From Dehalococcoidia bacterium (GTDB lineage: Bacteria > Chloroflexota > Dehalococcoidia > Tepidiformales > Tepidiformaceae): a stretch of DNA of 52,970 nt. Where the stretch lies: positions 1-52,970 of the forward strand of contig JADZEI010000087.1 in assembly GCA_020850615.1 (NCBI GenBank), in the 5' to 3' direction. Shown here one piece after another: positions 25,537 through 52,881 of this stretch. Under the pieces are notes generated by a model. That model was not told the DNA's origin. It ran no database searches and was given only the letters and a program-made list of their open reading frames with translations. Each line of letters begins with the position of its first letter. The first letter of the stretch is position 1. Position numbers and translations under genes: made by a program.

Positions 25537-25564
25537 CCAACAGCTTACAGCCAACAGCCAACAG
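25537..25564. repeat. Heptad tandem repeat block 1 (CCAACAG x4)
   Basis: Four consecutive 7-bp units: CCAACAG, CTTACAG, CCAACAG, CCAACAG. The block lies in the 200-bp spacer between the DinB-like gene and aspartate kinase. The same unit recurs at 43885 and 47192, with the same type of variant (CTAACAG) as second unit at 43885. Confidence 0.8.
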
Positions 25565-35711: not shown

Positions 35712-36118
35712 CACGACCGGTCACCACGCGCACTTCAACACCACCCACGACGCGCGCAGCCCCGAGTGCAGCGGGTTCCCGCCCCATTCGGGTGTGCCAA
35801 ATCGGGTGTAGCCGGTGCCCCTTGGGGCACGAGCGTCTAAGCCCAACGGATGCCCCACCGCCAGGCACCGCCCCAACCCGGCGATCCCGCCTCGCGCCAG
35901 CCCACCGCGCAGCGGTAGTCCGCCGAGCCCAGCCTCGGCGGCGCGTCAGCCCGACGGATGTCCCGCGGTAGCCGTGAGCGCACCCCGGCCGCCTCGCCCC
36001 GCACCAGCGCCCGACACCCCCGGGCTGCGCCATCAGTAGCGCGACGGTGACGGACCGCTCGGCCGCACCCCGGTACCCCCGCTGCGCGCAGCCCGCGACA
36101 CTCACCCGCGCCCGCCCG
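35712..36118. other. 407-bp intergenic region with degenerate repeats
   Basis: No gene is recognised. It holds a 7-bp hairpin GTGCCCC-TT-GGGGCAC (35815-35830), an inverted repeat CCGCCGAG/CTCGGCGG (35920-35941), and a repeated TCGGGTGT spaced 14 bp apart (35788, 35802). A loose duplication, AGCGTCTAAGCCCAACGGATG and GCGTCAGCCCGACGGATG (about 35832 and 35943), is also present. A two-mismatch copy of the 17-bp repeat seen at the window's right end lies at 36032-36048. It looks like eroded dispersed-repeat DNA. Confidence 0.45.
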
Positions 36119-37575: not shown

Positions 37576-37611
37576 CCCCTCTCCCGGAGGGGGAGGGGCC
37601 AGGGGTGAGGG
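37576..37611 (+). repeat. REP-like palindrome, copy 1
   Basis: CCCCTCTCCC, short loop, GGGGAGGGG, then the shared tail CCAGGGGTGAGGG. It sits in the spacer between divergent mgtE and the secreted-protein gene. Same orientation as the other five copies. Confidence 0.8.
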
Positions 37612-39427: not shown

Positions 39428-40711
39428 ATGCGCTACGTAACAGCAGAAGAAGCCGTCCAGGTCGTGGAGCCGGGCAACCGCGTCTACTTCCACGGCGGCG
39501 CAGCCACCCCCCACATCCTCATCGACGCCCTCATGGCTCGCTACGCCGAGCTCCGCGACGTCGAAATCGTCCACATGCACACCGATGGCGAAGCGCCCCA
39601 CGTCCGGCCCGAGATGGCCGGGCACTTCCGCCACAACGCGCTCTTCATTGGCGCGAATACCCGCCGCGCCGTCCAGGAAGGCCGCGCCGACTACACGCCC
39701 ATCTTCCTCTCCGAGATCCCGGGGCTGTTCAAGCCGGGTGGCGCCCTCCCGCTCGATGTCGCGATCATCCAGGTCACGCCACCTGACGGCGATGGCAACT
39801 GCTCGCTCGGCGTGTCCGTCGATTGCGCCCTCGCGGCCGCCTGGAACGCTCGCTGCGTCGTCGCGCAGGTCAACCCCAACATGCCCCGGACCGGCGGCCA
39901 CAGCCTGCCCTCCTCGCTGATCCAGTACGCCGTCCGCGTCGATGCCCCCCTCCCCGAGCCCGAGCCCCCCGAGATGTGCGAAGAGTTTGAGCGCATCGGC
40001 CACCGTGTCGCCGAGCTCATCGACGACGGCGCGACGCTCCAGATGGGCATCGGCGGCGTCCCCAACGCGGTCCTCGCCCAGCTCGGCTCCCACCGCGACC
40101 TCGGCATCCACACCGAGATGTTCACCGACGGCGTCCTCCCGCTCGTCGAGTCCGGCGTCATCAACGGCGCCCGCAAGACCATCCACCCGGGCGTCATGGT
40201 TTCCGCCTTCGTCATCGGCTCCCGTAAGCTCTACGACTTCCTCGACCGCAACCCGCGCGTCCAGCTCCGCCCTGTCGACTACACCAACAGCGTCGACGTC
40301 ATCGCCGCGAACCACCGCATGGTCGCGATCAACTCCGCCCTTGCCGTCGACCTCACCGGCCAGGTCGTCTCCGATAGCATCGGCTCCCGCTTCTACAGCG
40401 GCATCGGCGGCCAGGTCGACTTCATCCGCGGCGCAGCCCGCTCCGACGGCGGCGTGCCCGTCATCGCCCTCCCCGCGACGGCGAAAGGCGGCACGATCAG
40501 CCGCATCACCCCCGAGCATATCCCCGGCGCCGGCGTCGTCACCACCCGCGGCGACGTCCACTGGGTCGTGACCGAATTCGGTGCGGTGAACCTCCACGGC
40601 CGCACGATCCGCGACCGGGCCCGCCAGCTGATCAGCATCGCGGACCCCCGCTTCCAGTCCCAGCTCGAAGAGGCCGCGGCCAACCTCGGCTACCTCGGCC
40701 GCATGGACTAA
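39428..40711 (+). CDS. Acetyl-CoA hydrolase/transferase family (4-hydroxybutyrate CoA-transferase-like)
   Basis: Class I-type CoA-transferase of 427 residues, related to 4-hydroxybutyrate CoA-transferase and acetyl-CoA hydrolase. The catalytic Glu region is GIHTEMFTDGVLPL; the CoA-binding motif GIGGVPNAV lies shortly before it. GPGNRVYFHGG-like sequence (EPGNRVYFHGGAATP) opens the protein, and IGSRFYSGIGGQVDFIRGAA is the typical C-terminal segment. It would exchange CoA between acetyl-CoA and another acid. ATG 39428 lacks a strong ribosome binding site. Monocistronic, between a terminator and a REP element. Confidence 0.9.
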   Translation: MRYVTAEEAVQVVEPGNRVYFHGGAATPHILIDALMARYAELRDVEIVHMHTDGEAPHVRPEMAGHFRHNALFIGANTRRAVQEGRADYTPIFLSEIPGLFKPGGALPLDVAIIQVTPPDGDGNCSLGVSVDCALAAAWNARCVVAQVNPNMPRTGGHSLPSSLIQYAVRVDAPLPEPEPPEMCEEFERIGHRVAELIDDGATLQMGIGGVPNAVLAQLGSHRDLGIHTEMFTDGVLPLVESGVINGARKTIHPGVMVSAFVIGSRKLYDFLDRNPRVQLRPVDYTNSVDVIAANHRMVAINSALAVDLTGQVVSDSIGSRFYSGIGGQVDFIRGAARSDGGVPVIALPATAKGGTISRITPEHIPGAGVVTTRGDVHWVVTEFGAVNLHGRTIRDRARQLISIADPRFQSQLEEAAANLGYLGRMD

Positions 40712-40728
40712 TCTCCCACGCCGGATCA

Positions 40729-40767
40729 CCCCTCTCCCGCGCACGGGAGAGGGGACGGGGGTGAGGG
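40729..40767 (+). repeat. REP-like palindrome, copy 3
   Basis: CCCCTCTCCCG-CGCA-CGGGAGAGGGG, then ACGGGGGTGAGGG. It is 17 bp after the CoA-transferase stop and may also act as its terminator. Heptad block 2 follows 78 bp later. Confidence 0.8.
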
Positions 40768-40844
40768 GGCCCGCGACCGCGCGCGCACGCTCCCCGCGGG
40801 CACGCTACTCTCTGCGACAAACCCACGGGTGCGACCATCGTCTC

Positions 40845-40879
40845 GGGCACTGGGCACTGGGCACTGGGCACTGGGCCCT
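40845..40879. repeat. Heptad tandem repeat block 2 (GGGCACT x4 plus variant)
   Basis: Four perfect GGGCACT units and a fifth GGGCCCT unit, phase 7. It is 48 bp upstream of rsmE. Confidence 0.85.
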
Positions 40880-40914
40880 TGGCATCGCCCCTTCCTCCCC
40901 CCGCCATCCCCCCG

Positions 40915-40920
40915 TACCCT
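40915..40920 (+). promoter_or_regulatory. -10 box of rsmE (near-leaderless)
   Basis: TACCCT lies 6 nt before the GTG at 40927; no ribosome binding site is visible. Confidence 0.4.
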
Positions 40921-40926
40921 CCCCAC

Positions 40927-41646
40927 GTGGCCCACATCCCCCGGCTCTACGTCCCCGGCCGCCTCGGCCCCGGCCCGGTCACCCTCGACCGCGACCAGTC
41001 CCAGCGCCTTGCCGCCGTCATGCGCGTCCGCGAAGGCGACCCCGTGCAGCTTTTCTCCGGCGACGGCCGCGAATGGCACGCCACCGTCACCACCGTGACG
41101 AAGCAGGCGGTCCACCTCACCGTCGGCCAGCCTTCCCGCCAGGAGCCGCAGCCCGCCGTCACGCTCGAACTCTGGTGCGCAGTGGTCCGCGCCAACCGCT
41201 TCGATTGGGCCATCGAAAAGGCCGTCGAGCTCGGCGCCGGCATCATCCGCCCCATGATCTGCGACTACTCCGCCCGCGGCGACACCGCCGGCGCCGCGAA
41301 GCTCGACCGCTGGCAGCGCATCGTCATCGAAGCCGCCGAACAATCCGGCCGGCTCTGGCTGCCCGTCATCGAGCCGCCCGCAACGTTCGCCGCCGTCCTC
41401 GCCCGCCACCACGGCGCGCTCGTACTCGGCGACCCCGCCGGCATGCCGTGGCCGCACGCCGCCGCGCTCCTCCCGCCCCGCGGGACCGTCGCCCTCGCCA
41501 TCGGCCCCGAAGGCGGCTTCAGCCCCGCCGAGGGCGCCGCCGCCCGGGCCGCCGGCGCCCTCGCCGTCCAGCTCGGCCCCCACATCCTCCGCACCGAGAC
41601 CGCCGCCGCCGCCGGCCTCGCCCTCCTCCGCGCCACCCTCCTGTAA
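40927..41646 (+). CDS. rsmE: 16S rRNA (uracil-1498-N3)-methyltransferase RsmE
   Basis: SPOUT methyltransferase of 239 residues, the standard length, which methylates U1498 of 16S rRNA with S-adenosylmethionine. The N-terminal PUA-like domain has HIPRLYVPGRL. The C-terminal knot domain contains EKAVELGAGIIRPMICDYSA, EAAEQSGRLWLPVI, IGPEGGFSPAEG (about residue 193) and LGPHILRTETAAAAGL. GTG 40927 gives the usual family N-terminus. It is flanked on both sides by REP and heptad repeats. Confidence 0.93.
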   Translation: MAHIPRLYVPGRLGPGPVTLDRDQSQRLAAVMRVREGDPVQLFSGDGREWHATVTTVTKQAVHLTVGQPSRQEPQPAVTLELWCAVVRANRFDWAIEKAVELGAGIIRPMICDYSARGDTAGAAKLDRWQRIVIEAAEQSGRLWLPVIEPPATFAAVLARHHGALVLGDPAGMPWPHAAALLPPRGTVALAIGPEGGFSPAEGAAARAAGALAVQLGPHILRTETAAAAGLALLRATLL

Positions 41647-41648
41647 GG

Positions 41649-41676
41649 GTTGTCCGTTGTCCGTTGCCCGTTGTCC
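41649..41676. repeat. Heptad tandem repeat block 3a (GTTGTCC x4)
   Basis: Units GTTGTCC, GTTGTCC, GTTGCCC, GTTGTCC begin 2 bp after the rsmE stop. The reverse-complement block (GGACAAC x3) lies at 41847-41867 beyond a REP palindrome, so the two blocks form the outer arms of one composite inverted element. Confidence 0.85.
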
Positions 41677-41708
41677 GGCGGAATCATGCCGAGCGAGCCG
41701 TGCAATCC

Positions 41709-41759
41709 GCAGCTCCCTCTCCCGCCGCAGCGGGAGAGGGCGGGGGGTGAGGGAGCTGC
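41709..41759 (+). repeat. REP-like palindrome, copy 4 (nested in composite element)
   Basis: Outer perfect 11-bp arms GCAGCTCCCTC (41709-41719) and GAGGGAGCTGC (41749-41759) enclose CCCTCTCCCG-CCGCAG-CGGGAGAGGG (41715-41740) and the GGGGGGTGAGGG tail. Imperfect GAGCGAGCC/GGCTCGTT pairing extends the symmetry outward. Confidence 0.8.
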
Positions 41760-41846
41760 GTGGCTCGTTGCCATAGCGTCTCCCCGGCAGGTTCGCGACC
41801 TCCGCCTTCTGGTACGCTGAGACCCGCACGCGCCAGCATCCGATTC

Positions 41847-41867
41847 GGACAACGGACAACGGACGAC
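41847..41867. repeat. Heptad tandem repeat block 3b (GGACAAC x3)
   Basis: GGACAAC, GGACAAC, GGACGAC: the reverse complement of block 3a. It ends 35 bp before the DUF2283 gene. Confidence 0.85.
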
Positions 41868-41902
41868 GGGTTCCCGTCGCAGTACGGCAGGTGGGAATAG
41901 GC

Positions 41903-42124
41903 ATGCGCATCGAATACGACCCCGAGCTCGACATCCTCTACATCCGCCTCGACGCGGGTCAGGAGCATGCTCGCAACGAGACCTTCGATGTGGCCCCATT
42001 CTTCGTCGCGTTCGATGTCGACGCGGAGGACCGCATCGCCGCCATCGAGATCCTCGACGCTTCGAAGCGGGTAAACCTGGCCCAGCTCCTGCCGCTCGTC
42101 CACCCCGCTGCCGCCTCCGCCTGA
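41903..42124 (+). CDS. DUF2283 family protein
   Basis: Small protein of 73 residues matching the DUF2283 pattern (MRIEYDPELDILYIRLD, then FDVDAEDRIAAIEILDAS). Family members are often encoded beside toxin-antitoxin or hypothetical genes; their function is unknown. The ATG has GGGAATAGG upstream. It lies in the repeat-rich stretch between rsmE and a membrane protein. Confidence 0.8.
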   Translation: MRIEYDPELDILYIRLDAGQEHARNETFDVAPFFVAFDVDAEDRIAAIEILDASKRVNLAQLLPLVHPAAASA

Positions 42125-42137
42125 GCCTGCCCGCCCG

Positions 42138-42172
42138 ATCGACAATCGCCCGGCGGCAATCGACAATCACTC
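42138..42172. repeat. Heptad tandem repeat block 4 (ATCGACA type, degenerate)
   Basis: Five 7-bp steps: ATCGACA, ATCGCCC, GGCGGCA, ATCGACA, ATCACTC. It fills most of the 49-bp gap between two genes and ends just before the ATG at 42174. Confidence 0.55.
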
Positions 42173-42173
42173 C

Positions 42174-42563
42174 ATGGCTGCCATCCGCGGACTCACCCTC
42201 GCCTTCGGCCTCTTCGCCGGCTCGTTTGCTCTCCACATCGTCGGCGGCGCGACAGACCAGGGCTGGCTCTTCGCCATCGCCGTCGCCATCATCTTCGTCT
42301 CCGCGACCGGCTTCCCCGCGCTCGCCGTGTTCTTCGCCGGGCCCCGGCTTTCGCCCGCGGCCACCCGCCCCGTCCTCGCCATAGGCGCGCTCGCCGGGCT
42401 CGTCTTCACCGCCGGCGCCCTCTGGGCCGCGAACGAGCGCGCCTTCGCCGCCTGGCACATCGTCGCCGTCCCCGCCCTCGTCACAGGCGTCTCCCTCACC
42501 CTCCTCGCCGCCCGCGAGCTCCTCCGTCGCACCACCCCCCGCAAAGGCCCCGCCCCCGCCTGA
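42174..42563 (+). CDS. Small membrane protein of unknown function
   Basis: Protein of 129 residues with four predicted membrane helices: LTLAFGLFAGSFALHIVGG, LFAIAVAIIFVSATGFPALA, PVLAIGALAGLVFTAGALWA and IVAVPALVTGVSLTLLAARE. The basic C-terminus is likely cytoplasmic. I recognise no family. The start has no ribosome binding site because a heptad repeat abuts it, so expression may depend on the upstream gene. The high-GC3 codon pattern supports it being real. Confidence 0.6.
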   Translation: MAAIRGLTLAFGLFAGSFALHIVGGATDQGWLFAIAVAIIFVSATGFPALAVFFAGPRLSPAATRPVLAIGALAGLVFTAGALWAANERAFAAWHIVAVPALVTGVSLTLLAARELLRRTTPRKGPAPA

Positions 42564-42760
42564 TCGCCCCGCTGCACACTCGACGCTTACGCGAGTGAGA
42601 GAACAGGTGCCGCCTCCGGCCCACCAACCGCCCGCCCACGCGTAAATCGAAAATCGCAAATCGAAAATGGGGCGGGGCCGGGTGCGGCGGGGGCGGGGCG
42701 ACGGGTGGCGGGGTCTCTGCTAGGCTCGCTCCCGCATATCCCACCCACGGAGACACCCAC
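42564..42760. other. Spacer with weak hairpin and -10 box
   Basis: CACTCG-N9-CGAGTG (42577-42597) is a weak hairpin. Heptad block 5 follows (42644-42671). TAGGCT at 42721-42726 and GGAGA at 42749-42753 probably serve the LLM gene. Confidence 0.4.
42644..42671. repeat. Heptad tandem repeat block 5 (AAATCGA type x4)
   Basis: AAATCGA, AAATCGC, AAATCGA, AAATGGG. It is AT-rich in a very GC-rich context, which makes it stand out. Confidence 0.75.
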
Positions 42761-43783
42761 ATGGCCCGCCGCCTCGCCGTCAGCATCGGCTTCACCCCGG
42801 ACCCCGAACAGGCGAAAGAAGTCATCAAGCGCGTCAAGATCGCCGAAGAAGTCGGCGTCGAAGCCTGCTTCACCGCCGAGACCTGGGGCCGCGACCAGTT
42901 CTCGCTCCTCACCCGCCTCGCCGTCGAGACCTCGAAGATCAAGCTCGGCACCGGCATCGCCCCTGTCTTCGGCCGCTCGCCCGCGATGCTCGCCATGACC
43001 TCCGCCACCCTCGACGAGCTCTCCGGCGGCCGCTTCATCCTCGGCCTCGGCACCTCCGGCTCCCGCGTCATCGAACACTGGCACGGCGAGCCCTTCTCGA
43101 AGCCCCTCACCCGCCTCCGCGAATACGTCGAGATCATCAACATGATCGTCCGCGGCGAACGCGTCCTCTACGACGGCGAAATCTTCAAGCTCGAGCGCGG
43201 CTTCAAGCTCCTCTTCGAACCCGTCCGCAACCACATCCCGATCAGCGTCGCCGGCATCTCCCCCAAGAGCATGCGCGACGTCGTCGGCACCGTCGCCGAC
43301 GCCTGGGAGCCCGTCTACTGGCCGAAGTCGAAGTTCGTCGACGGCAAGCAGCTCATCGCCAACGCCGCCGTCGCCGCCGGCCGCCCCGCCGACGCCGTCG
43401 AATGCTGGGCCTCGATCACCACGGTCATCGACCCCAACGTCGAGCGCGCGAAGAAGGCTGCCGCCGGCCCTGTGACCTGGTACATCACCAACATGGGCGA
43501 CTTCTACCACCAGATGCTCACCCGCAACGGCTTCGGCGAAGACGTCGAGCGCATCCGCAAGGCCGCCGAGACCCACAAGCCCCTGCCCTTCCAGACCAAC
43601 GACGAGCTCATGGCCGTCACCAGCGACGCCCTCATCGACGAAACCGCCGTCTACGGCGACCTCGAGACCGTCGCCATGGGCATCGAAGAGCGCCGCCAGC
43701 TCGGCGTCGACATGCCCTGCATCTCCATGCCCGCCGGCACCCCCAACGAGATCGAACGCATCCTCGGCACCCTCGTCGCCTGA
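42761..43783 (+). CDS. LLM-class flavin/F420-dependent oxidoreductase (second)
   Basis: Luciferase-like oxidoreductase of 340 residues. It shows VKIAEEVGVEACFTAETWGR, IKLGTGIAPVFGRSPAMLAM, and the signature GRFILGLGTSGSRVIEHWHG. VAGISPKSMRDVVGTVADAW matches the F420-dependent branch where a substrate loop follows the fifth strand. ATG 42761 has GGAGA 7 nt upstream. It is a single gene followed by a REP element. It is a distant paralogue of the enzyme at 9225; the substrate is unknown. Confidence 0.88.
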   Translation: MARRLAVSIGFTPDPEQAKEVIKRVKIAEEVGVEACFTAETWGRDQFSLLTRLAVETSKIKLGTGIAPVFGRSPAMLAMTSATLDELSGGRFILGLGTSGSRVIEHWHGEPFSKPLTRLREYVEIINMIVRGERVLYDGEIFKLERGFKLLFEPVRNHIPISVAGISPKSMRDVVGTVADAWEPVYWPKSKFVDGKQLIANAAVAAGRPADAVECWASITTVIDPNVERAKKAAAGPVTWYITNMGDFYHQMLTRNGFGEDVERIRKAAETHKPLPFQTNDELMAVTSDALIDETAVYGDLETVAMGIEERRQLGVDMPCISMPAGTPNEIERILGTLVA

Positions 43784-43801
43784 CCACGGTACCCCTCGTC
43801 T

Positions 43802-43840
43802 CCCCTCTCCCCCGCAGGGGAGAGGGGCCGGGGGTGAGGG
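43802..43840 (+). repeat. REP-like palindrome, copy 5
   Basis: CCCCTCTCCCC-CGC-AGGGGAGAGGGG, then CCGGGGGTGAGGG. It lies 18 bp after the LLM stop codon, between convergent genes; heptad block 6 follows 44 bp later. Confidence 0.8.
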
Positions 43841-43884
43841 CGCGTCCGTCCCTACCGCCGCGTGGTCGCCCCGCGCAGCCCGCA

Positions 43885-43912
43885 CCAACAGCTAACAGCC
43901 AACAGCCAACAG
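43885..43912. repeat. Heptad tandem repeat block 6 (CCAACAG x4)
   Basis: CCAACAG, CTAACAG, CCAACAG, CCAACAG, nearly the same as block 1 at 25537. It lies between the convergent LLM and MFS genes. Confidence 0.85.
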
Positions 43913-43924
43913 CCGCGCCCGCCC

Positions 43925-45166
43925 CTACGCCGCCGCCGGCAACGCCCGCCCCGACCGGTAGATCCGCCGCAGATGCGTCCCCCGCACCATCGTCCCCAGC
44001 ACGATCACCAGGTACACGAGCGCCGGGACCGCGAACAGCACGGGCGCCCCCAGCGCGTCCGCCGCCGACCCGAACCCCAGGTTCGCGAACGCCATCACCC
44101 CGCCCGCCGACATCAGGTAGAGGCTCATCACCCGCCCGCGCACGTCGTCCGGCACCGCCTCCTGCATCAGCACTGCCGTCACCGCCATGAACATCGCCTG
44201 CGACGACCCCATCAGGATCGCGCTCGCCGCTGCGGGCGCGATGTGCGCGCTCACCGACATCAGCAGCGGCGACACCCCGCTCGCCAGCGCCGTGACCAGC
44301 AGCAGCTTCCCCCGCTGCGCGTTCTTCGTCACCGCCAGCACGAACGTGCCCACCAGCGCGCCGATGCCCACGCCCAGGGTCATGACCGTGAAGCCCGTGT
44401 CGCCGTGGTGCAGCTCGTCTTCCGCGAACCCCGGCAGCATCGCGTCGAACGACATCGTCAGCGCACAGTGCGCGGTCACGAGCAGGAAGATCGCCAGCAC
44501 CGCTGGCGTCCGCCGCACGTAGCCGAACCCCTCCCGCAGGTTCCCGACCACCTCGCTCAGCCGCGTCACCCCGCCGCGCGACTCCACCTTCAGCCGCCGC
44601 ACCGAGGTGAACGCCAGCATCGCGAACACCGCCGAGATCGCGTACGCGCCCGTCACGCCGCTCGTCGCCAGCAGCGGCCCCGCGAGGATTGGCCCCACTG
44701 CCCGCGACCCATGCTGCGTCATGCTCGAAAGCGCCACCGCGTTCGGCAGGTCCTCCGCCGGCACCACGTTCGCCAGCAGCGCCTGGTCCGAGGGGATCTC
44801 GACCGCCCGCACGATCCCCTGCGCGAGCGCCATCCCCACCACCATCCACACCTCGATCAGGTGCGTCGCCGCCAGCACGAACAGCACCGCCGTCACGCAG
44901 AACGCCCCGATCCGCGTCGATTGCACGAGCAGCCGCCGCTCCACCCGGTCCGCCACGATCCCCCCGAACGGCGCCAGCAAGTAGGGCGACATCGACGCGA
45001 ACGTCGAGACCCCCACCCACGCCGACGAGTTGCTCAGGTGGTAGACGATCCACGCGTTCGCCAGCAGCATCGTCCAGAGCGCGACCGCCGAGCACGCCGT
45101 CCCGCCCCAGAGCGCGCGGAACTCCGCGTGTCGCGTCGCCGGCAACCGTGCCCGAATTCGGTTCAT
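43925..45166 (-). CDS. MFS transporter (EntS/DHA3-like)
   Basis: Major facilitator of 413 residues with about 12 hydrophobic segments. The N-terminus (ARHAEFRALWGG-type: TRHAEFRALWGG) and the loop GGIVADRVERRLLVQ after helix 2 are typical of the DHA3/EntS exporter group. The second half has DDVRGRVMSLYLMSAGG. Substrate unknown. The -10 box TATAGT (minus strand, 45181-45176) overlaps the stop codon of the upstream rpe gene and ends 9 nt before the ATG, giving this gene its own near-leaderless promoter. Confidence 0.87.
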   Translation of the reverse strand: MNRIRARLPATRHAEFRALWGGTACSAVALWTMLLANAWIVYHLSNSSAWVGVSTFASMSPYLLAPFGGIVADRVERRLLVQSTRIGAFCVTAVLFVLAATHLIEVWMVVGMALAQGIVRAVEIPSDQALLANVVPAEDLPNAVALSSMTQHGSRAVGPILAGPLLATSGVTGAYAISAVFAMLAFTSVRRLKVESRGGVTRLSEVVGNLREGFGYVRRTPAVLAIFLLVTAHCALTMSFDAMLPGFAEDELHHGDTGFTVMTLGVGIGALVGTFVLAVTKNAQRGKLLLVTALASGVSPLLMSVSAHIAPAAASAILMGSSQAMFMAVTAVLMQEAVPDDVRGRVMSLYLMSAGGVMAFANLGFGSAADALGAPVLFAVPALVYLVIVLGTMVRGTHLRRIYRSGRALPAAA

Positions 45167-45176
45167 CGAAGCGCGA

Positions 45177-45842
45177 CTATACGCGCTCCACCGCCGCCCG
45201 CAGCCGTGCCAGGCTCTCCGCCACGCTCGCTTCGCGGTTGTACACCGAGCTCCCGCACACCAGCGTGTGCGCGCCCGCCTGCGCGCACAGCGCCGCGTTC
45301 GCCACCTTCACGCCGCCGTCGATCATGATCTCCGCGCCGTAGCCGCCCTCGTCGATCAGCTCCCGGATGCGCCGCACCTTGTCCAGCTGCCGCGGGATCA
45401 TCTGCTGCCCGCCCCAGCCCGGGTTGATCGTCATCACCATCACCTGGTCCACCTCCGCCAGCGATTCCTCGATCGCGCTCACCGGCGTCCCCGGGTTGAT
45501 GCACACCCCGCACCTCGCCCCTAGCTTGCGGATGCCGTCCAGCGTCCGGTTGATGTGCGGCGAAACCTCGATGTGGACGTTGATCGTGCTCGCGAGCTCC
45601 GCGAACGCCGCGATCTGCCGCTCCGGCTCCACGATCATCAGGTGGATGTCCAGCGGCAGCTCCGTCGCCTTCCGGATCGCCTCCACGACCAGCGGCCCGA
45701 ACGTGATCACTGGCACGAACTGGCCGTCCATCACGTCCAGGTGGAGCAGGTCGGCGCCGCCCGCTTCCGCCGCGCGCGCCTCATCGGCGAGCCGGCCAAA
45801 GTCCGCGGTCAGGATCGAAGGCGCGAGCTTTATCGTTGCCAC
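45177..45842 (-). CDS. rpe: Ribulose-phosphate 3-epimerase
   Basis: Pentose-phosphate pathway epimerase of 221 residues (usual length), interconverting ribulose 5-phosphate and xylulose 5-phosphate. TIM-barrel signatures are KLAPSILTADFGRL, LLHLDVMDGQFVP with metal-binding His/Asp, DIHLMIVEPE, MTINPGWGGQ and IMIDGGV. GTG 45842 lies 6 nt after the -10 box TAGAAT (minus strand, 45854-45849), a near-leaderless start. It is divergent from the degV gene, sharing a 64-bp promoter region. Confidence 0.94.
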   Translation of the reverse strand: MATIKLAPSILTADFGRLADEARAAEAGGADLLHLDVMDGQFVPVITFGPLVVEAIRKATELPLDIHLMIVEPERQIAAFAELASTINVHIEVSPHINRTLDGIRKLGARCGVCINPGTPVSAIEESLAEVDQVMVMTINPGWGGQQMIPRQLDKVRRIRELIDEGGYGAEIMIDGGVKVANAALCAQAGAHTLVCGSSVYNREASVAESLARLRAAVERV

Positions 45843-45848
45843 CCGCCG

Positions 45849-45881
45849 ATTCTAACGCCCAGCCCGCTTACGCCTTATACT
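45849..45881. promoter_or_regulatory. Divergent -10 boxes for rpe and the DegV gene
   Basis: TAGAAT reads on the minus strand (45854-45849, 6 nt before the rpe GTG). TATACT reads on the plus strand (45876-45881, 25 nt before the DegV-gene ATG). The two promoters are packed into 64 bp. Confidence 0.45.
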
Positions 45882-45906
45882 ATGCCGCGTAGGCAGTTCA
45901 ACAATT

Positions 45907-46743
45907 ATGGCCGTCCGCATCGTCACCGACTCCACCTGCGACCTTCCCCGCGACGTCGTCGAGCGCTACGGCATCACCGTCGTCCCCCTCACCCTCACCT
46001 TCGGCGACGAAGAGTTCCTGGACTGGGTCGACATCGACGCCAACGCCTTCTACGCGAAGCTTGTCGCCAGCCACGATGTCCCCCGCACAAGCCAGCCCAC
46101 CGTCGCCCGCTTCCGCGACGCCTACCGGGCCATCGGCCCCGAGCACGACATCGTCTCGGTGCACATCTCCTCGCGCCTCAGCGGCACGCTGAACTCCGCC
46201 TCCATCGCCCGCGAAGAGCTCGCCGGCGAGATGCGCATCGACCTCATCGACTCCCACACGGTCAGCCTTGGCATGGGCGCCGTCGCCCTCGAAGCCGCAA
46301 TCGTCGCCCAGCGCGGCGGCACCCTCGAGGAGGTCGCCGCCGCCGCCCGCCACACCGCCGACCGCGTCCGCGTCGTCGCCCTCGTCGACACGCTCGAATA
46401 CCTGCGCCGCGGCGGTCGCATCGGCCGCGCCCAGTCGATGCTCGGCTCGCTCCTCAGCATCAAGCCGCTCCTCCACGTCGATAAAGGCGAAGTCGCGCCC
46501 TTCGACCGCGTCCGCACCCGTTCGAAGGCTGTCCAGCGCCTCTTCGAAATCGCGACCGAAGACCGTACCCTGAAGCGCGTGTTTCTTGGCTGCGGCGGCA
46601 ACGATGCCGAGGCGCTCGAATTCATGGAGCGCCTGCGCCCCCTCATGCCCCACACAGAGTTCATCCTGGGCCAGGTCGGGCCAGCGGTCGGCGTCCACTC
46701 CGGCCCCAACGTCCTCGGAGTCGGCCTCGTCGGGAGAGACTGA
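45907..46743 (+). CDS. DegV family fatty-acid-binding protein (FakB-like)
   Basis: DegV-family protein of 278 residues. These bind a fatty acid and can present it to the kinase FakA for phosphorylation. Signatures are RIVTDSTCDLPRDVVERYGI, TSQPTVARFRDAYRAI, SVHISSRLSGTLNSA and EYLRRGGRIGRAQSMLGSLL. The stop overlaps the recG ATG (TGATG). No fakA/DAK-type gene is adjacent in this window, although DegV and FakA genes often precede recG in other bacteria. Confidence 0.92.
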   Translation: MAVRIVTDSTCDLPRDVVERYGITVVPLTLTFGDEEFLDWVDIDANAFYAKLVASHDVPRTSQPTVARFRDAYRAIGPEHDIVSVHISSRLSGTLNSASIAREELAGEMRIDLIDSHTVSLGMGAVALEAAIVAQRGGTLEEVAAAARHTADRVRVVALVDTLEYLRRGGRIGRAQSMLGSLLSIKPLLHVDKGEVAPFDRVRTRSKAVQRLFEIATEDRTLKRVFLGCGGNDAEALEFMERLRPLMPHTEFILGQVGPAVGVHSGPNVLGVGLVGRD

Positions 46744-49325
46744 TGTCCGCCGCCGACAACGCCCGCCTCAAGCGCGTCTTCCAGCTCGAGCTCGAACGCG
46801 GCTGCACCAACCAGGCCGTCATCGGCGGCCTCGACCGCATGTTCATCCAGATGGACGAAGACGGCCTCCTCGAAATCGGCGGCGCCCTCCGCCGCATGGT
46901 CGCCGAGCTCCCGCCCGGCGGCTACCGCAACCTCGACGAACCCGCCCGCAAGCGCTGGCTCGAACGCACCATCCGCGCCCTCGACGGCATCCCCACCATC
47001 CCCTCCCCCGCCCCACCCACGAACGTCCGCACCCTCGCCCCCAACGTCACCCCCCTCCCCCAGCGCCGGACCTCAGCCCAAGCCAAGGCCAGTACCATCT
47101 CTCCCGCCCAACAGAAGACGAGCCGCCGAACGGCCCCCCCTCTCCCGCCGCAGCGGGAGAGGGGGCAGGGGGGTGAGGGCCACCCATCGGGCCAACAGCC
47201 AACAGCCAACAGCCAACAGCTCTCCCTCACCTCCCCCCTCACCAAACTCCCCGGCATCGGCCCCGCCGCCGTCCCGAAGTTCGAAAAGCTCGGCGTCACC
47301 AACGCCGGCGAGGCCGCGGTCTTCTACCCCCGCCGCTATAACGACTTCACCGACCTCCGGCCCATCGCCCAGCTCCAGCCCTCCACCACACCGCAGACCG
47401 TCATCGCGACCGTCTTCTCGGTCCGCGAGATGCGCTTCGGCAAGCGCGTGCGCGGCGCGGAGGCGATGCTCCAGGACCGCACCGGCTCGCTCAAGGTCGC
47501 CTGGTTCAACATGCCCTACGTCGCCCGGCAGCTCGAAGAGGGCCAGCAGGTCGTCGTCTCCGGCAAGGTCCGCGCCTTCCGCGGCCGCCTCCAGATGGAG
47601 AACCCCGAGTTCGAGCCCGCCGATGCCGAGCTGATGCACACCGGCCGCCTGGTGCCCGTCTACCCTGCCACCGCCGGCCTCGCCCAGCGCACCATCCGCC
47701 GCGCCGTCAAGGCCGCGGTCGATGCGCTCGCCCCGCAAGTGCCCGATGCCGCGCCCGCCTGGCTCCGCTCCGAAGCCCGCGTGGCCCCGCTGGGCAACGC
47801 CGTCCGCGAGCTCCACTACCCCGAGTCCTTCGGCCATGCCGAGCGCGCCCGCCAGGCCATCGCCCTCCGCGAGTTCCTCGCCATCCAGGTCGCCGTCCTC
47901 ATGCGGCGCGCCGAATGGCAGCAGGGCCGCGATGCCCCACGCCTCGACTTCGACCGCCTCCGCGAGCCCTTCCTCGCATCGCTCCCGTGGCAGCTCACCG
48001 GCGCCCAGGCGCGCGCCCTCGACGACATAACTCGCGACATCCGCGGCCCCCACCCGATGCTCCGCCTCCTCCAGGGCGATGTCGGCTCGGGCAAGACCGT
48101 CGTCGCCTTCGCCGCCATGCTCGCCGCCGTCGCCTCCGGCTACCAGGCCGTGCTCATGGCCCCCACCGAGATCCTCGCCGACCAGCACTACCGCTCGCTC
48201 TCGAAGATGCTCGGCGGCAGCGCCCTGACCGCCCTCGACGGCGTCTTCGCGCCCGAGTGGCTCCGCCGCCCGCTCCGCGCGCTCCTCCTGACCGGCTCGC
48301 TCACCCCGCAGCAGAAGGAGCAGATCCGCAGTGACGCCGCCCACGGTGGCGCCGACATCGTCATCGGCACGCACGCCCTGCTCGAAGACGACGTCCAGAT
48401 CCCGCGCCTCGGCCTCGCCGTCGTCGACGAGCAGCACCGCTTCGGCGTCCTGCAGCGCGCGAAGCTCCGCCAGAAGGGCGACAACCCTCACCTCCTCGTC
48501 ATGACCGCGACGCCGATCCCCCGGACGCTCGCCCTCACCGTCTACGGCGACCTCGAGGTCTCGTCGATCACCGAGATGCCGCCCGGCCGCAAGCCGATCA
48601 AGACCGAGTGGGTCCAGCCCCTCGACCGCGAGACCGCCTACCGCAACGTCCGCCGCCGCCTGGACGACGGCGAGCAGGTCTACGTCATCTGCCCCCTGGT
48701 CGAAGAGTCCGAAGCCCTCGACGTCCGCTCCGCCGAGGAGGAGTTCGAGCGCCTCCGCACCGGCCCGCTCAAGGACTACCGCCTCGAGCTCCTCCACGGC
48801 CGCATGCCCGGCCGCCAGAAGGACGAGGTCATGGAGCGCTTCGCAAGCAAGGAAGCCCAGGTCCTCGTCTCCACCAGCGTCATCGAGGTCGGCATCGACG
48901 TCCCGAACGCGACTGTCATCATCATCGAAGGCGCGGAGCGCTTCGGCCTGAGCCAGCTCCACCAGTTCCGCGGACGCGTCGGCCGCTCCGAGAAGCAGAG
49001 CTACTGCTTCCTCTTCAGCACCGGCGAGGATCCCGGCCCCGACGCCCACGAGCGCCTCCAGGCCATGGTCGAAACCACCGACGGGTTCAAGCTCGCCGAG
49101 GTCGACCTGGAGATGCGCGGCGAAGGCGAAGCCTGGGGCCGCGTCCAGAGCGGCGCCAACGCCATGCTCCGCGTCGCCCGCATCTCCGACCGCGACATCC
49201 TCCTCCGCGCGCGCGACCTCGCCGCGCAGGTCCTCGCCCGCGACCCGCAGCTCCAGAAGCCCGAGCACCACCAGCTCGCCGCCATCGTCAAACCCTTCCT
49301 CGCCCGCGCCACGGAGGCCAACTGA
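46743..49325 (+). CDS. recG: ATP-dependent DNA helicase RecG with N-terminal extension and repeat-derived linker
   Basis: Branch-migrating helicase of 860 residues, against about 690-700 in E. coli. Residues 1-100 form an extra helical domain (NARLKRVFQLELERGCTNQA). A low-complexity linker follows, of which residues 132-159 are encoded by a REP palindrome plus four heptads. The wedge domain begins at LTKLPGIGPAAVPKFEKLGV. Helicase motifs are LLQGDVGSGKT (I), DEQHRFG (II), MTATPIPRT (III) and QFRGRVGR (VI). RecG rescues stalled forks and processes recombination intermediates. It is coupled to the DegV gene upstream and to radA downstream. Confidence 0.95.
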   Translation: MSAADNARLKRVFQLELERGCTNQAVIGGLDRMFIQMDEDGLLEIGGALRRMVAELPPGGYRNLDEPARKRWLERTIRALDGIPTIPSPAPPTNVRTLAPNVTPLPQRRTSAQAKASTISPAQQKTSRRTAPPLPPQRERGQGGEGHPSGQQPTANSQQLSLTSPLTKLPGIGPAAVPKFEKLGVTNAGEAAVFYPRRYNDFTDLRPIAQLQPSTTPQTVIATVFSVREMRFGKRVRGAEAMLQDRTGSLKVAWFNMPYVARQLEEGQQVVVSGKVRAFRGRLQMENPEFEPADAELMHTGRLVPVYPATAGLAQRTIRRAVKAAVDALAPQVPDAAPAWLRSEARVAPLGNAVRELHYPESFGHAERARQAIALREFLAIQVAVLMRRAEWQQGRDAPRLDFDRLREPFLASLPWQLTGAQARALDDITRDIRGPHPMLRLLQGDVGSGKTVVAFAAMLAAVASGYQAVLMAPTEILADQHYRSLSKMLGGSALTALDGVFAPEWLRRPLRALLLTGSLTPQQKEQIRSDAAHGGADIVIGTHALLEDDVQIPRLGLAVVDEQHRFGVLQRAKLRQKGDNPHLLVMTATPIPRTLALTVYGDLEVSSITEMPPGRKPIKTEWVQPLDRETAYRNVRRRLDDGEQVYVICPLVEESEALDVRSAEEEFERLRTGPLKDYRLELLHGRMPGRQKDEVMERFASKEAQVLVSTSVIEVGIDVPNATVIIIEGAERFGLSQLHQFRGRVGRSEKQSYCFLFSTGEDPGPDAHERLQAMVETTDGFKLAEVDLEMRGEGEAWGRVQSGANAMLRVARISDRDILLRARDLAAQVLARDPQLQKPEHHQLAAIVKPFLARATEAN
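47137..47179 (+). repeat. REP-like palindrome, copy 6, inside recG
   Basis: CCCCTCTCCCG-CCGCAG-CGGGAGAGGGGG, then CAGGGGGGTGAGGG. The palindrome core is the same as in copy 4, including the CCGCAG loop. It is translated as PPLPPQRERGQGGEG within the RecG linker. Confidence 0.85.
47192..47219. repeat. Heptad tandem repeat block 7 (CCAACAG x4), inside recG
   Basis: Four perfect CCAACAG units, 13 bp after REP copy 6, translated as QQPTANSQQ. It has the same unit as the intergenic blocks 1 and 6. Confidence 0.9.
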
Positions 49326-50716
49326 TGGCGCGCACCACCACGCCCTCGTACCGCTGCTCGGCCTGCGGCTGGGAATCGCCGCGCTTCGTCGGGCGCTGCG
49401 CGCGCTGCCAGGAGTGGAACACGCTCGAACAGGCGCTCGCCGCGCCCAACCGCGCTGTCCCCGCCGCCCGCCGCCCCGCCGCCGTTGCCCCCGCGCCCAC
49501 CCTCACCTTCGCCGAAGTCGTCGAAGATGCGGACACCCGCCTCCGGACCGGCATCCCCGAGTTCGACCGCGTCCTCGGCGGCGGCCTGGTCCCCGGCTCC
49601 ATCGTCCTCGCCGGCGGCGACCCCGGCATCGGCAAGTCCACGCTCATGCTCCAGGCGGCGGCGCGGCTCGCCGCCGCCGGCGCCCGCGTCGCCTACGTCT
49701 GTGGCGAGGAGTCCCCGCGGCAGGTGAAGATGCGCGCCGCCCGCCTCGGCGCCGAATCCGCGCCCATCACGCTTATCCCCGAGACGAACCTGGATTCCGC
49801 CCTCGCCGCAGCCGAGGGCGCCGGCGCCACGGTCGCCATCGTCGATTCCATCCAGGCGATGTACGTCGAGGGCCTCGAAACCCGGACCGGCGGCCCCGCC
49901 CAGCTCGGCGAAGCCGGCGCCCGCCTCGTCTCCTGGGCGAAGTCCACCGGCACGGCCACGCTCCTGACCGGCCACGTCACCAAGGGCGGCGAAATCGCCG
50001 GTCCGCGCCTCCTCGAACACCTCGTCGACGCCGTCCTCTACTTCGAAGGCGCGGAGGGTGGCACCCTGCGCGTCCTCCGCGCGGTGAAGAACCGCTTCGG
50101 CGCCACCGACGAGGTCGGCGTCTTCGAAATGACCGGCGACGGCCTCCGCAGCGTCGAAAACGCCTCCGCGGCCTTCCTTGAAGGCGCCGACCCCGAGGCG
50201 TCCGGCTGCGCCGTCACCGCCGTCATCGAAGGCACCCGCCCGATCGCGGTCGAGGTGCAGGCGCTCGCCGTGCCCTCGTACCTGGCCTCGCCGCGCCGCG
50301 TCTCCTCCGGCCTCGAAACCTCGCGCCTCCACCTGCTGCTCGCCGTGCTTGCCCGCCGCGCCGGGCTCAGCGCCGGGCAGATGGACGTGGTCGCCACCGT
50401 GAGCGGCGGCCTCCGCCTCCGCGACCCCGCCGCCGACCTCGCGGTCGCCGCCGCGCTCGCCAGCGCCATCCGCGACCAGCCCCTGGACCGCTCGGTCGCG
50501 CTCCTGGGCGAAGTCGCCCTCTCCGGCGCCGTCCGCCCCGTGCCCAACGCCGCCCGCCGCCTCGCCGAGCTCGGCCGCCAGGGCTTCGACCGCTGCATCG
50601 TCCCGCCCGGCACGCCGCCCGTCGAGGGGGTCACGCTCATCCCCGCGGCCAACCTCAAGGCCGCGATCCGCCTCGCCCTCGGGGCCCCGAAACCGGCTCC
50701 GGAGCCCGCGGAGTAG
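49325..50716 (+). CDS. radA: DNA repair protein RadA
   Basis: RadA/Sms of 463 residues, a RecA-like helicase that aids strand exchange. An N-terminal zinc finger has Cys11, Cys14, Cys25 and Cys28 (CSACGWESPRFVGRCARC). Walker A is GGDPGIGKST (about residue 98). The RadA-specific motif KNRFG is near 254-258. The C-terminal Lon-protease-like domain contains MDVVATVSGGLRLRDPAADL and GEVALSGAVRPV. The stop of recG overlaps its ATG, placing two repair genes in one transcript. Confidence 0.95.
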   Translation: MARTTTPSYRCSACGWESPRFVGRCARCQEWNTLEQALAAPNRAVPAARRPAAVAPAPTLTFAEVVEDADTRLRTGIPEFDRVLGGGLVPGSIVLAGGDPGIGKSTLMLQAAARLAAAGARVAYVCGEESPRQVKMRAARLGAESAPITLIPETNLDSALAAAEGAGATVAIVDSIQAMYVEGLETRTGGPAQLGEAGARLVSWAKSTGTATLLTGHVTKGGEIAGPRLLEHLVDAVLYFEGAEGGTLRVLRAVKNRFGATDEVGVFEMTGDGLRSVENASAAFLEGADPEASGCAVTAVIEGTRPIAVEVQALAVPSYLASPRRVSSGLETSRLHLLLAVLARRAGLSAGQMDVVATVSGGLRLRDPAADLAVAAALASAIRDQPLDRSVALLGEVALSGAVRPVPNAARRLAELGRQGFDRCIVPPGTPPVEGVTLIPAANLKAAIRLALGAPKPAPEPAE

Positions 50717-52624: not shown

Positions 52625-52881
52625 CGCCCGATATGTTGCGCCAGCCCGAACGCCCCCGCAAGCGCCTAACGCCCCGAACCAGCGACGCACACCCCACCCA
52701 CGCCCGTCGCGACCACCGCGACCCATCAGTAGCCCGACCAATCAGTAGCCCGACCGTGAGGAAGGGCAGGCCCACCCCCGCACGCGTCACCACCCCACAC
52801 GGCGACCACCGCCCACCCCGCGACTCATCACTAGCCCGACCGTATCAGTAGCCCGACCGTCAGGACATCTGTGGTTGTCCG
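52625..52881. other. Intergenic region dominated by 17-bp repeats
   Basis: No gene recognised. It carries four copies of an ATCAGTAGCCCGACCGT-type repeat within a loosely duplicated segment of about 100 bp; see the separate repeat entry. Confidence 0.5.
52725..52860. repeat. Cluster of four 17-bp repeats
   Basis: Copies of ATCAGTAGCCCGACCGT lie at 52725-52740 (truncated), 52741-52757, 52827-52843 (one mismatch, ATCACTAG) and 52844-52860. They form two adjacent pairs, each preceded by a GCGACCACCGC stretch, so a unit of about 100 bp seems duplicated. A two-mismatch copy lies at 36032-36048. Confidence 0.8.

Follow-up and report, generated by a model that had tools for sequence, protein, structure and literature searches.

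Origin of the repeats within recG

Can dispersed repeat DNA enter a bacterial gene and be read as part of its protein? This question is raised by recG of an uncultured Chloroflexota-like bacterium, whose genome is a 4.17-Mb draft of 95 contigs and 95% completeness. The window, which is the whole stretch of 52,970 nucleotides that was analysed, has a GC content of 70%. The features of recG and its 5' part are as follows.

46743–49325, + strand: recG, ATP-dependent DNA helicase, intact frame of 860 aa (ORF reading, NCBIfam match)
46743–46985, + strand: N-terminal helical domain of RecG, residues 1–81, conserved family-wide (RecG of relatives, structure model)
46986–47246, + strand: variable linker of RecG, residues about 82–168, 87 aa (RecG of relatives, AlphaFold)
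47136–47179, + strand: triplex-type palindrome (TM), encoding PPLPPQRERGQGGEG (direct reading, RNA fold, BLAST)
47192–47219, + strand: heptad array of four perfect CCAACAG units, encoding QQPTANSQQ (direct reading)

The ORF matches the NCBIfam RecG family PRK10917.2-2 with an E-value of 6e-262, and residues 6–855 are covered. A pseudogene is ruled out, as the frame is open and every domain is present. The linker is bounded by the N-terminal helical domain (residues 1–80) and the wedge domain (residues 172–326, PF17191). For residues 84–157, AlphaFold predicts no structure (pLDDT < 50), while the neighbouring parts fold. RecG carries the N-terminal domain throughout the family, and also in several further families of its class. 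The linker is therefore not a recent gene-fusion junction, an origin that is ruled out.

Inside this linker, the palindrome and the heptads are separated by a 12-nt spacer, and the insert is translated in the frame of recG as PPLPPQRERGQGGEGHPSGQQPTANSQQ, residues 132–159. The palindrome, CCCTCTCCCGCCGCAGCGGGAGAGGGGGCAGGGGGGTGAGGG with additional Cs preceding it, forms a 13-bp stem from the arms 47136–47148 and 47153–47165 around the loop 47149–47152, and a third block, GGGTGAGGG, ends at 47179. The RNA fold of the insert gives a z-score of -2.81. No Rfam family matches within 40500–49400. The preliminary description had reported that a palindrome and CCAACAG repeats of the intergenic type also lie within recG and code for about residues 132–159. 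Direct reading confirms this, and the coordinates, the residue range and, from the domains, the placement of the insert given there are all right.

RecG was compared at the protein level with about 29 other genomes of the same family that represent other genera, as the linkers cannot be aligned as DNA. The segment of residues 132–159 is absent from RecG of all of these relatives (58–72% identity). The linker has 87 residues here versus 27–77 in the relatives; without the 28 repeat-coded residues it would have 59, within that range. Proline/arginine-rich linkers are common among the relatives. Conservation of the linker at the protein level across relatives, as expected of ancestral coding sequence, was looked for and not found. 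The absence of the segment from relatives and the disorder of the linker support the earlier proposal of a lineage-specific insertion at a site that tolerates it.

The palindrome is a triplex-type motif

The palindrome had been labelled a REP. Judged from its block structure, it is an "intrastrand triplex motif" (TM) and does not belong to the GTAG/CGTC REPs. Three TM blocks are seen at 47136–47179: a C-rich arm, its G-rich complement and the G-rich mirror block GGGTGAGGG. The blocks CCCTCTCCC / GGGAGAGGG / GGGTGAGGG are common to TM_ECO of Escherichia coli (Holder et al. 2015, PMC4666352) and TM here. So is the arm variant CCCTCGCC, which is present in 29 of 123 TM copies of this genome. Other TM copies of this genome show second loops that resemble the TTA and CCG types of TM_ECO. 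GTTAG and GCCGG (11 each) are among the commonest second loops in the genome, and the recG copy has a longer one of GGCAG type. Both systems show close inverted pairs (here, for example, C11:73599 and C11:73658) and a high copy number on both strands. Compared with TM_ECO, TM here carries extra Gs in arms and loops, and the second loop of the recG copy is longer. The location also differs: TM of E. coli is always intergenic (PMC4666352), whereas here TM is translated in five genes.

No GTAG tag is present at 47130–47185 around the recG palindrome. The genome has its own GTAG-type REP, which is a different palindrome, GGTAGTCCGCCGAGCCCAGCCTCGGC. At one locus (L116), a Y1 transposase gene lies between oppositely oriented copies of this REP, three in all. 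One copy is found in the window, from about 35914 to 35939–35947. None of the seven PF01797 loci has TM within about 1.5 kb of the Y1 transposase. The RAYT was considered as the mover of TM and is rejected, since these seven loci show no linkage between TM and transposase. On these three grounds (the missing tag, the distinct REP of the genome and the lack of association with Y1 transposases), the REP label does not hold.

Dispersal of TM and heptads in the genome

The pattern GGGAGAGGG-N0-10-GGGTGAGGG has 143 exact copies in the genome, 61 on the forward and 82 on the reverse strand, versus none for the reversed-pattern control. When 47090–47245 is compared with the whole genome by BLAST, dozens of matches span about 47136–47181 only, the best with 90–96% identity, and their flanks show no similarity to the flanks in recG. 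As these matches start and stop at about 47136 and 47181, the unit of copying is TM alone, about 46 bp. The heptads give separate matches; the few matches that span both reach 77–79% identity and are due to the two repeats themselves. The element had been described as mobile or spreading by copying. The copying is well supported by the dozens of copies with unmatched flanks, and autonomous mobility is not, with TM near none of the seven Y1 loci.

Three intergenic copies in the window are accompanied by heptads.

40729–40767, + strand: intergenic TM copy, with GGGCACT heptads downstream at 40845–40876
41715–41753, + strand: intergenic TM copy between the inverted heptads TTGTCCG (41649–41677) and CGGACAA (41846–41864)
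43802–43840, + strand: intergenic TM copy, with CCAACAG-type heptads downstream at 43885–43912

The inverted heptads around the second of these (41649–41864) could make a larger hairpin. A degenerate TM copy, CCCCTCTCCCGGAGGGGGAGGGGCCAGGGGTGAGGG, is found at about 37576–37611. Intergenic 7-nt tandem repeats with varied units are seen at 25537–25564, 40845–40876, 41649–41677, 41846–41864 and 43885–43912. The end of the window contains short tandem repeats of 16–17 nt, CGACCAATCAGTAGCC and ATCACTAGCCCGACCGT, at 52719–52755 and 52827–52860.

The double heptad CCAACAGCCAACAG, with up to 2 mismatches, has 9 matches in the window versus 0.28 expected, and the heptad pattern AACAGCCAACAGCCAACAG has 74 matches in the genome versus 2 for the reversed pattern. 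Chance as the source of the repeats is rejected by the shuffles and by the reversed-pattern control. Period 7 accounts for 33 of 43 perfect arrays of at least 21 nt (periods 4–15) at sampled loci that were partly chosen for their heptads. Within 200 nt of TM (113 TMs), it is seen in 17 cases on the 3' side and 6 on the 5' side, and no other period between 4 and 13 exceeds 3 and 3. Of 30 CCAACAG arrays, only 5–6 lie within 250 nt of a TM. TM and heptads are both mainly intergenic, and the shared intergenic space alone would bring them together. A whole-genome search found no donor of the combined insert. The earlier notion of a "REP plus heptad unit" thus fails: TM and heptads are dispersed separately, the spacers are unrelated, and there is no donor pair.

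Insertions in other genes and in relatives

For the intragenic count, 123 of about 143 TM copies were read with their flanks, and a copy was called in frame from the codon-usage scores on both sides. Six of the 123 were called in frame by this measure, and they belong to five genes: recG, uvrC (L145/L177), metH (L148/L232), menE (L139/L328) and a membrane protein gene with two copies (L010). The identities of UvrC, MetH and MenE are confirmed by NCBIfam. The phenomenon is therefore wider than the single case first described, with at least five genes. The claim that non-coding repeat DNA has become protein sequence is borne out in RecG and in at least four other proteins.

In recG, uvrC, metH and menE, TM is accompanied by heptads whose sequence differs from gene to gene. 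At 4 of the 5 intragenic loci, heptads come after TM in the direction of the gene; in menE they are GCACGGG units and in metH degenerate GGACTNN units. The insert of uvrC is a mosaic of an opposite-orientation TM, a GTGAACC-type heptad and a CAATCGG-type heptad, each of which matches different places of the genome; no single donor of the mosaic was found in the genome. The inserts of UvrC and MetH are absent in the relatives compared, and the MenE site has 0–12 residues in relatives versus about 34–47 in this genome.

The same linkers also carry repeats in other genera. The UvrC linker of G001 (L180) has its own heptads, GAGGAGG and CCTCAGT, at the same site, and that of G003 (L179) has a CCCTCCT-type array there. 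MenE of G009 (L329) contains an inverted TM pair of its own at the same site. This pair was found by alignment only, in a contig stretch outside the exact-TM loci that were read. With the same script, none of 76 exact TMs in G009 and none of 57 in G001, two other TM-rich genera, is intragenic, which indicates that intragenic TM copies are rare.

The recG copy, with its longer second loop, contains no TGA in the frame of recG. Consensus TM is stop-free in 2 of 3 forward frames and in all 3 reverse frames, and CCAACAG arrays are stop-free in every frame. These open frames make survival in frame easier.

How the insert may have arisen

It is likely that a dispersed TM was copied into the disordered linker of recG, that a separate CCAACAG array was formed or copied beside it, and that both became a protein segment. 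TM, about 46 bp, would have entered a linker that is unconstrained as well as disordered, possibly by template switching or recombination at stalled hairpins, and polymerase slippage might have produced the tandem heptads next to it. The total length of the insert preserves the frame, and the TGA-free TM variant is read through, which yields the 28-residue segment. Most genic insertions may have been lost by selection, so that only frame-keeping events in linkers and loops remain. The observed part of this explanation consists of the dispersal of TM in the genome, its absence from RecG of all relatives examined, the predicted disorder of the linker and the similar inserts in uvrC, metH, menE and the membrane protein gene.

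A single insertion of TM and heptads as one composite mobile unit would account for the usual position of the heptads on the 3' side of TM where both occur (17 versus 6, of 113) and for the order of TM then heptads at 4 of 5 intragenic loci. It is unlikely, as the heptad sequence differs at each intragenic site, TM lies within 250 nt of only 5–6 of 30 CCAACAG arrays, and the genome contains no donor of the combined segment. Moreover, the spacer is 12 nt in recG and about 45 nt at 43840–43885, with unrelated sequences, and TM of uvrC has the opposite orientation. That the linker is instead ancestral coding sequence, resembling the repeats by chance or by compositional convergence, is hardly credible. 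The GC content of 70% and the proline/arginine-rich linkers common in relatives agree with it, but against it are the identity of up to 96% to other TM copies, 28 nt of perfect heptads, 143 matches versus 0 in the control, and the lack of the segment in all relatives examined. An assembly artefact, with recG joined chimerically at a high-copy repeat, is very improbable, even though the genome is a draft of 95 contigs and the insert is known from the assembly alone: the flanks belong to one contiguous in-frame recG with an 860-aa ORF, and four other genes show the same with unbroken frames.

The elements might also be kept in repair genes for a function, if the mRNA hairpin, the triplex or the linker length tunes RecG and UvrC. 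Repair genes are two of the five affected genes, GTAG/CGTC REPs are often found in replication and repair genes (PMC3733652), and UvrC linkers in three genera have each their own repeats. Such retention is nevertheless improbable: five genes are a small sample and were counted post hoc, the membrane protein gene, metH and menE are affected as well, most relatives have short linkers without repeats in UvrC and RecG, and the sites are accounted for by the tolerance of a disordered linker. It can be speculated further, at long odds, that the RecG and UvrC linkers are recurrent landing sites in which structure-forming repeats are kept because they alter repair activity, with repeat load coupled to repair capacity. 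For the origin of the segment in recG, separate copying of TM and formation or copying of heptads in a tolerant linker is the preferred explanation.

Comparison with known repeats

In-frame palindromic repeats are already known from Rickettsia RPEs and GTAG/CGTC REPs. The latter, when located in genes, often affect replication and repair genes (Di Nocera et al. 2013, PMC3733652); the main text of that paper makes no mention of recG. They share with TM of recG that both are short palindromic repeats translated in genes, and differ in that the recG palindrome lacks a GTAG tag and is not associated with a transposase. That recG and uvrC are among the five genes fits what was seen earlier for REPs, although so small a sample does not allow a claim. 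The RPEs measure about 150 bp, and close to half of them lie within genes (Ogata et al. 2000, 2002; reviewed in PMC10969869). Like TM, they are palindromic repeats in frame in unrelated genes (here five), whereas TM, at about 46 bp, is intragenic in about 5% of the copies examined.

Heptameric tandem repeats are known as GGGAATC in Xanthomonas and GGGGATT in Nostoc (PMC4692102), and as TAACTGA in Beggiatoaceae (PMC4679880); slippage was hypothesised as their origin (discussed in PMC4692102). The heptads here share with them the period of 7, a largely intergenic location and some occurrence within ORFs. They differ in that many units are present in one genome and that they are translated beside TM in the linkers of RecG, UvrC, MetH and MenE. 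The tandem repeats of Borgs create disordered protein regions, and their units within ORFs are divisible by three (PMC9879509). Disordered protein segments are made from repeat DNA in both cases; with the unit of 7 here, the frame is kept solely by the total length.

A literature search, outside which most subscription journals lay, found no papers on such inserts in recG or uvrC beyond those cited. As far as the searched literature shows, the translation of TM, the heptads of different sequence alongside it in four genes and the recurrence at the same linkers in several genera are new.

The insertion of repeats in frame, for which Rickettsia and the GTAG/CGTC REPs gave earlier examples, is thus extended to the widespread TM and to 7-nt repeats. 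Repeats of this sort are presumed to interfere with replication. RecG and UvrC are repair proteins, and the retention of TM copies in them is therefore a testable curiosity. With about 140 copies and five genes, the genome provides a countable system for how non-coding repeats turn into protein linkers and which sites tolerate them.
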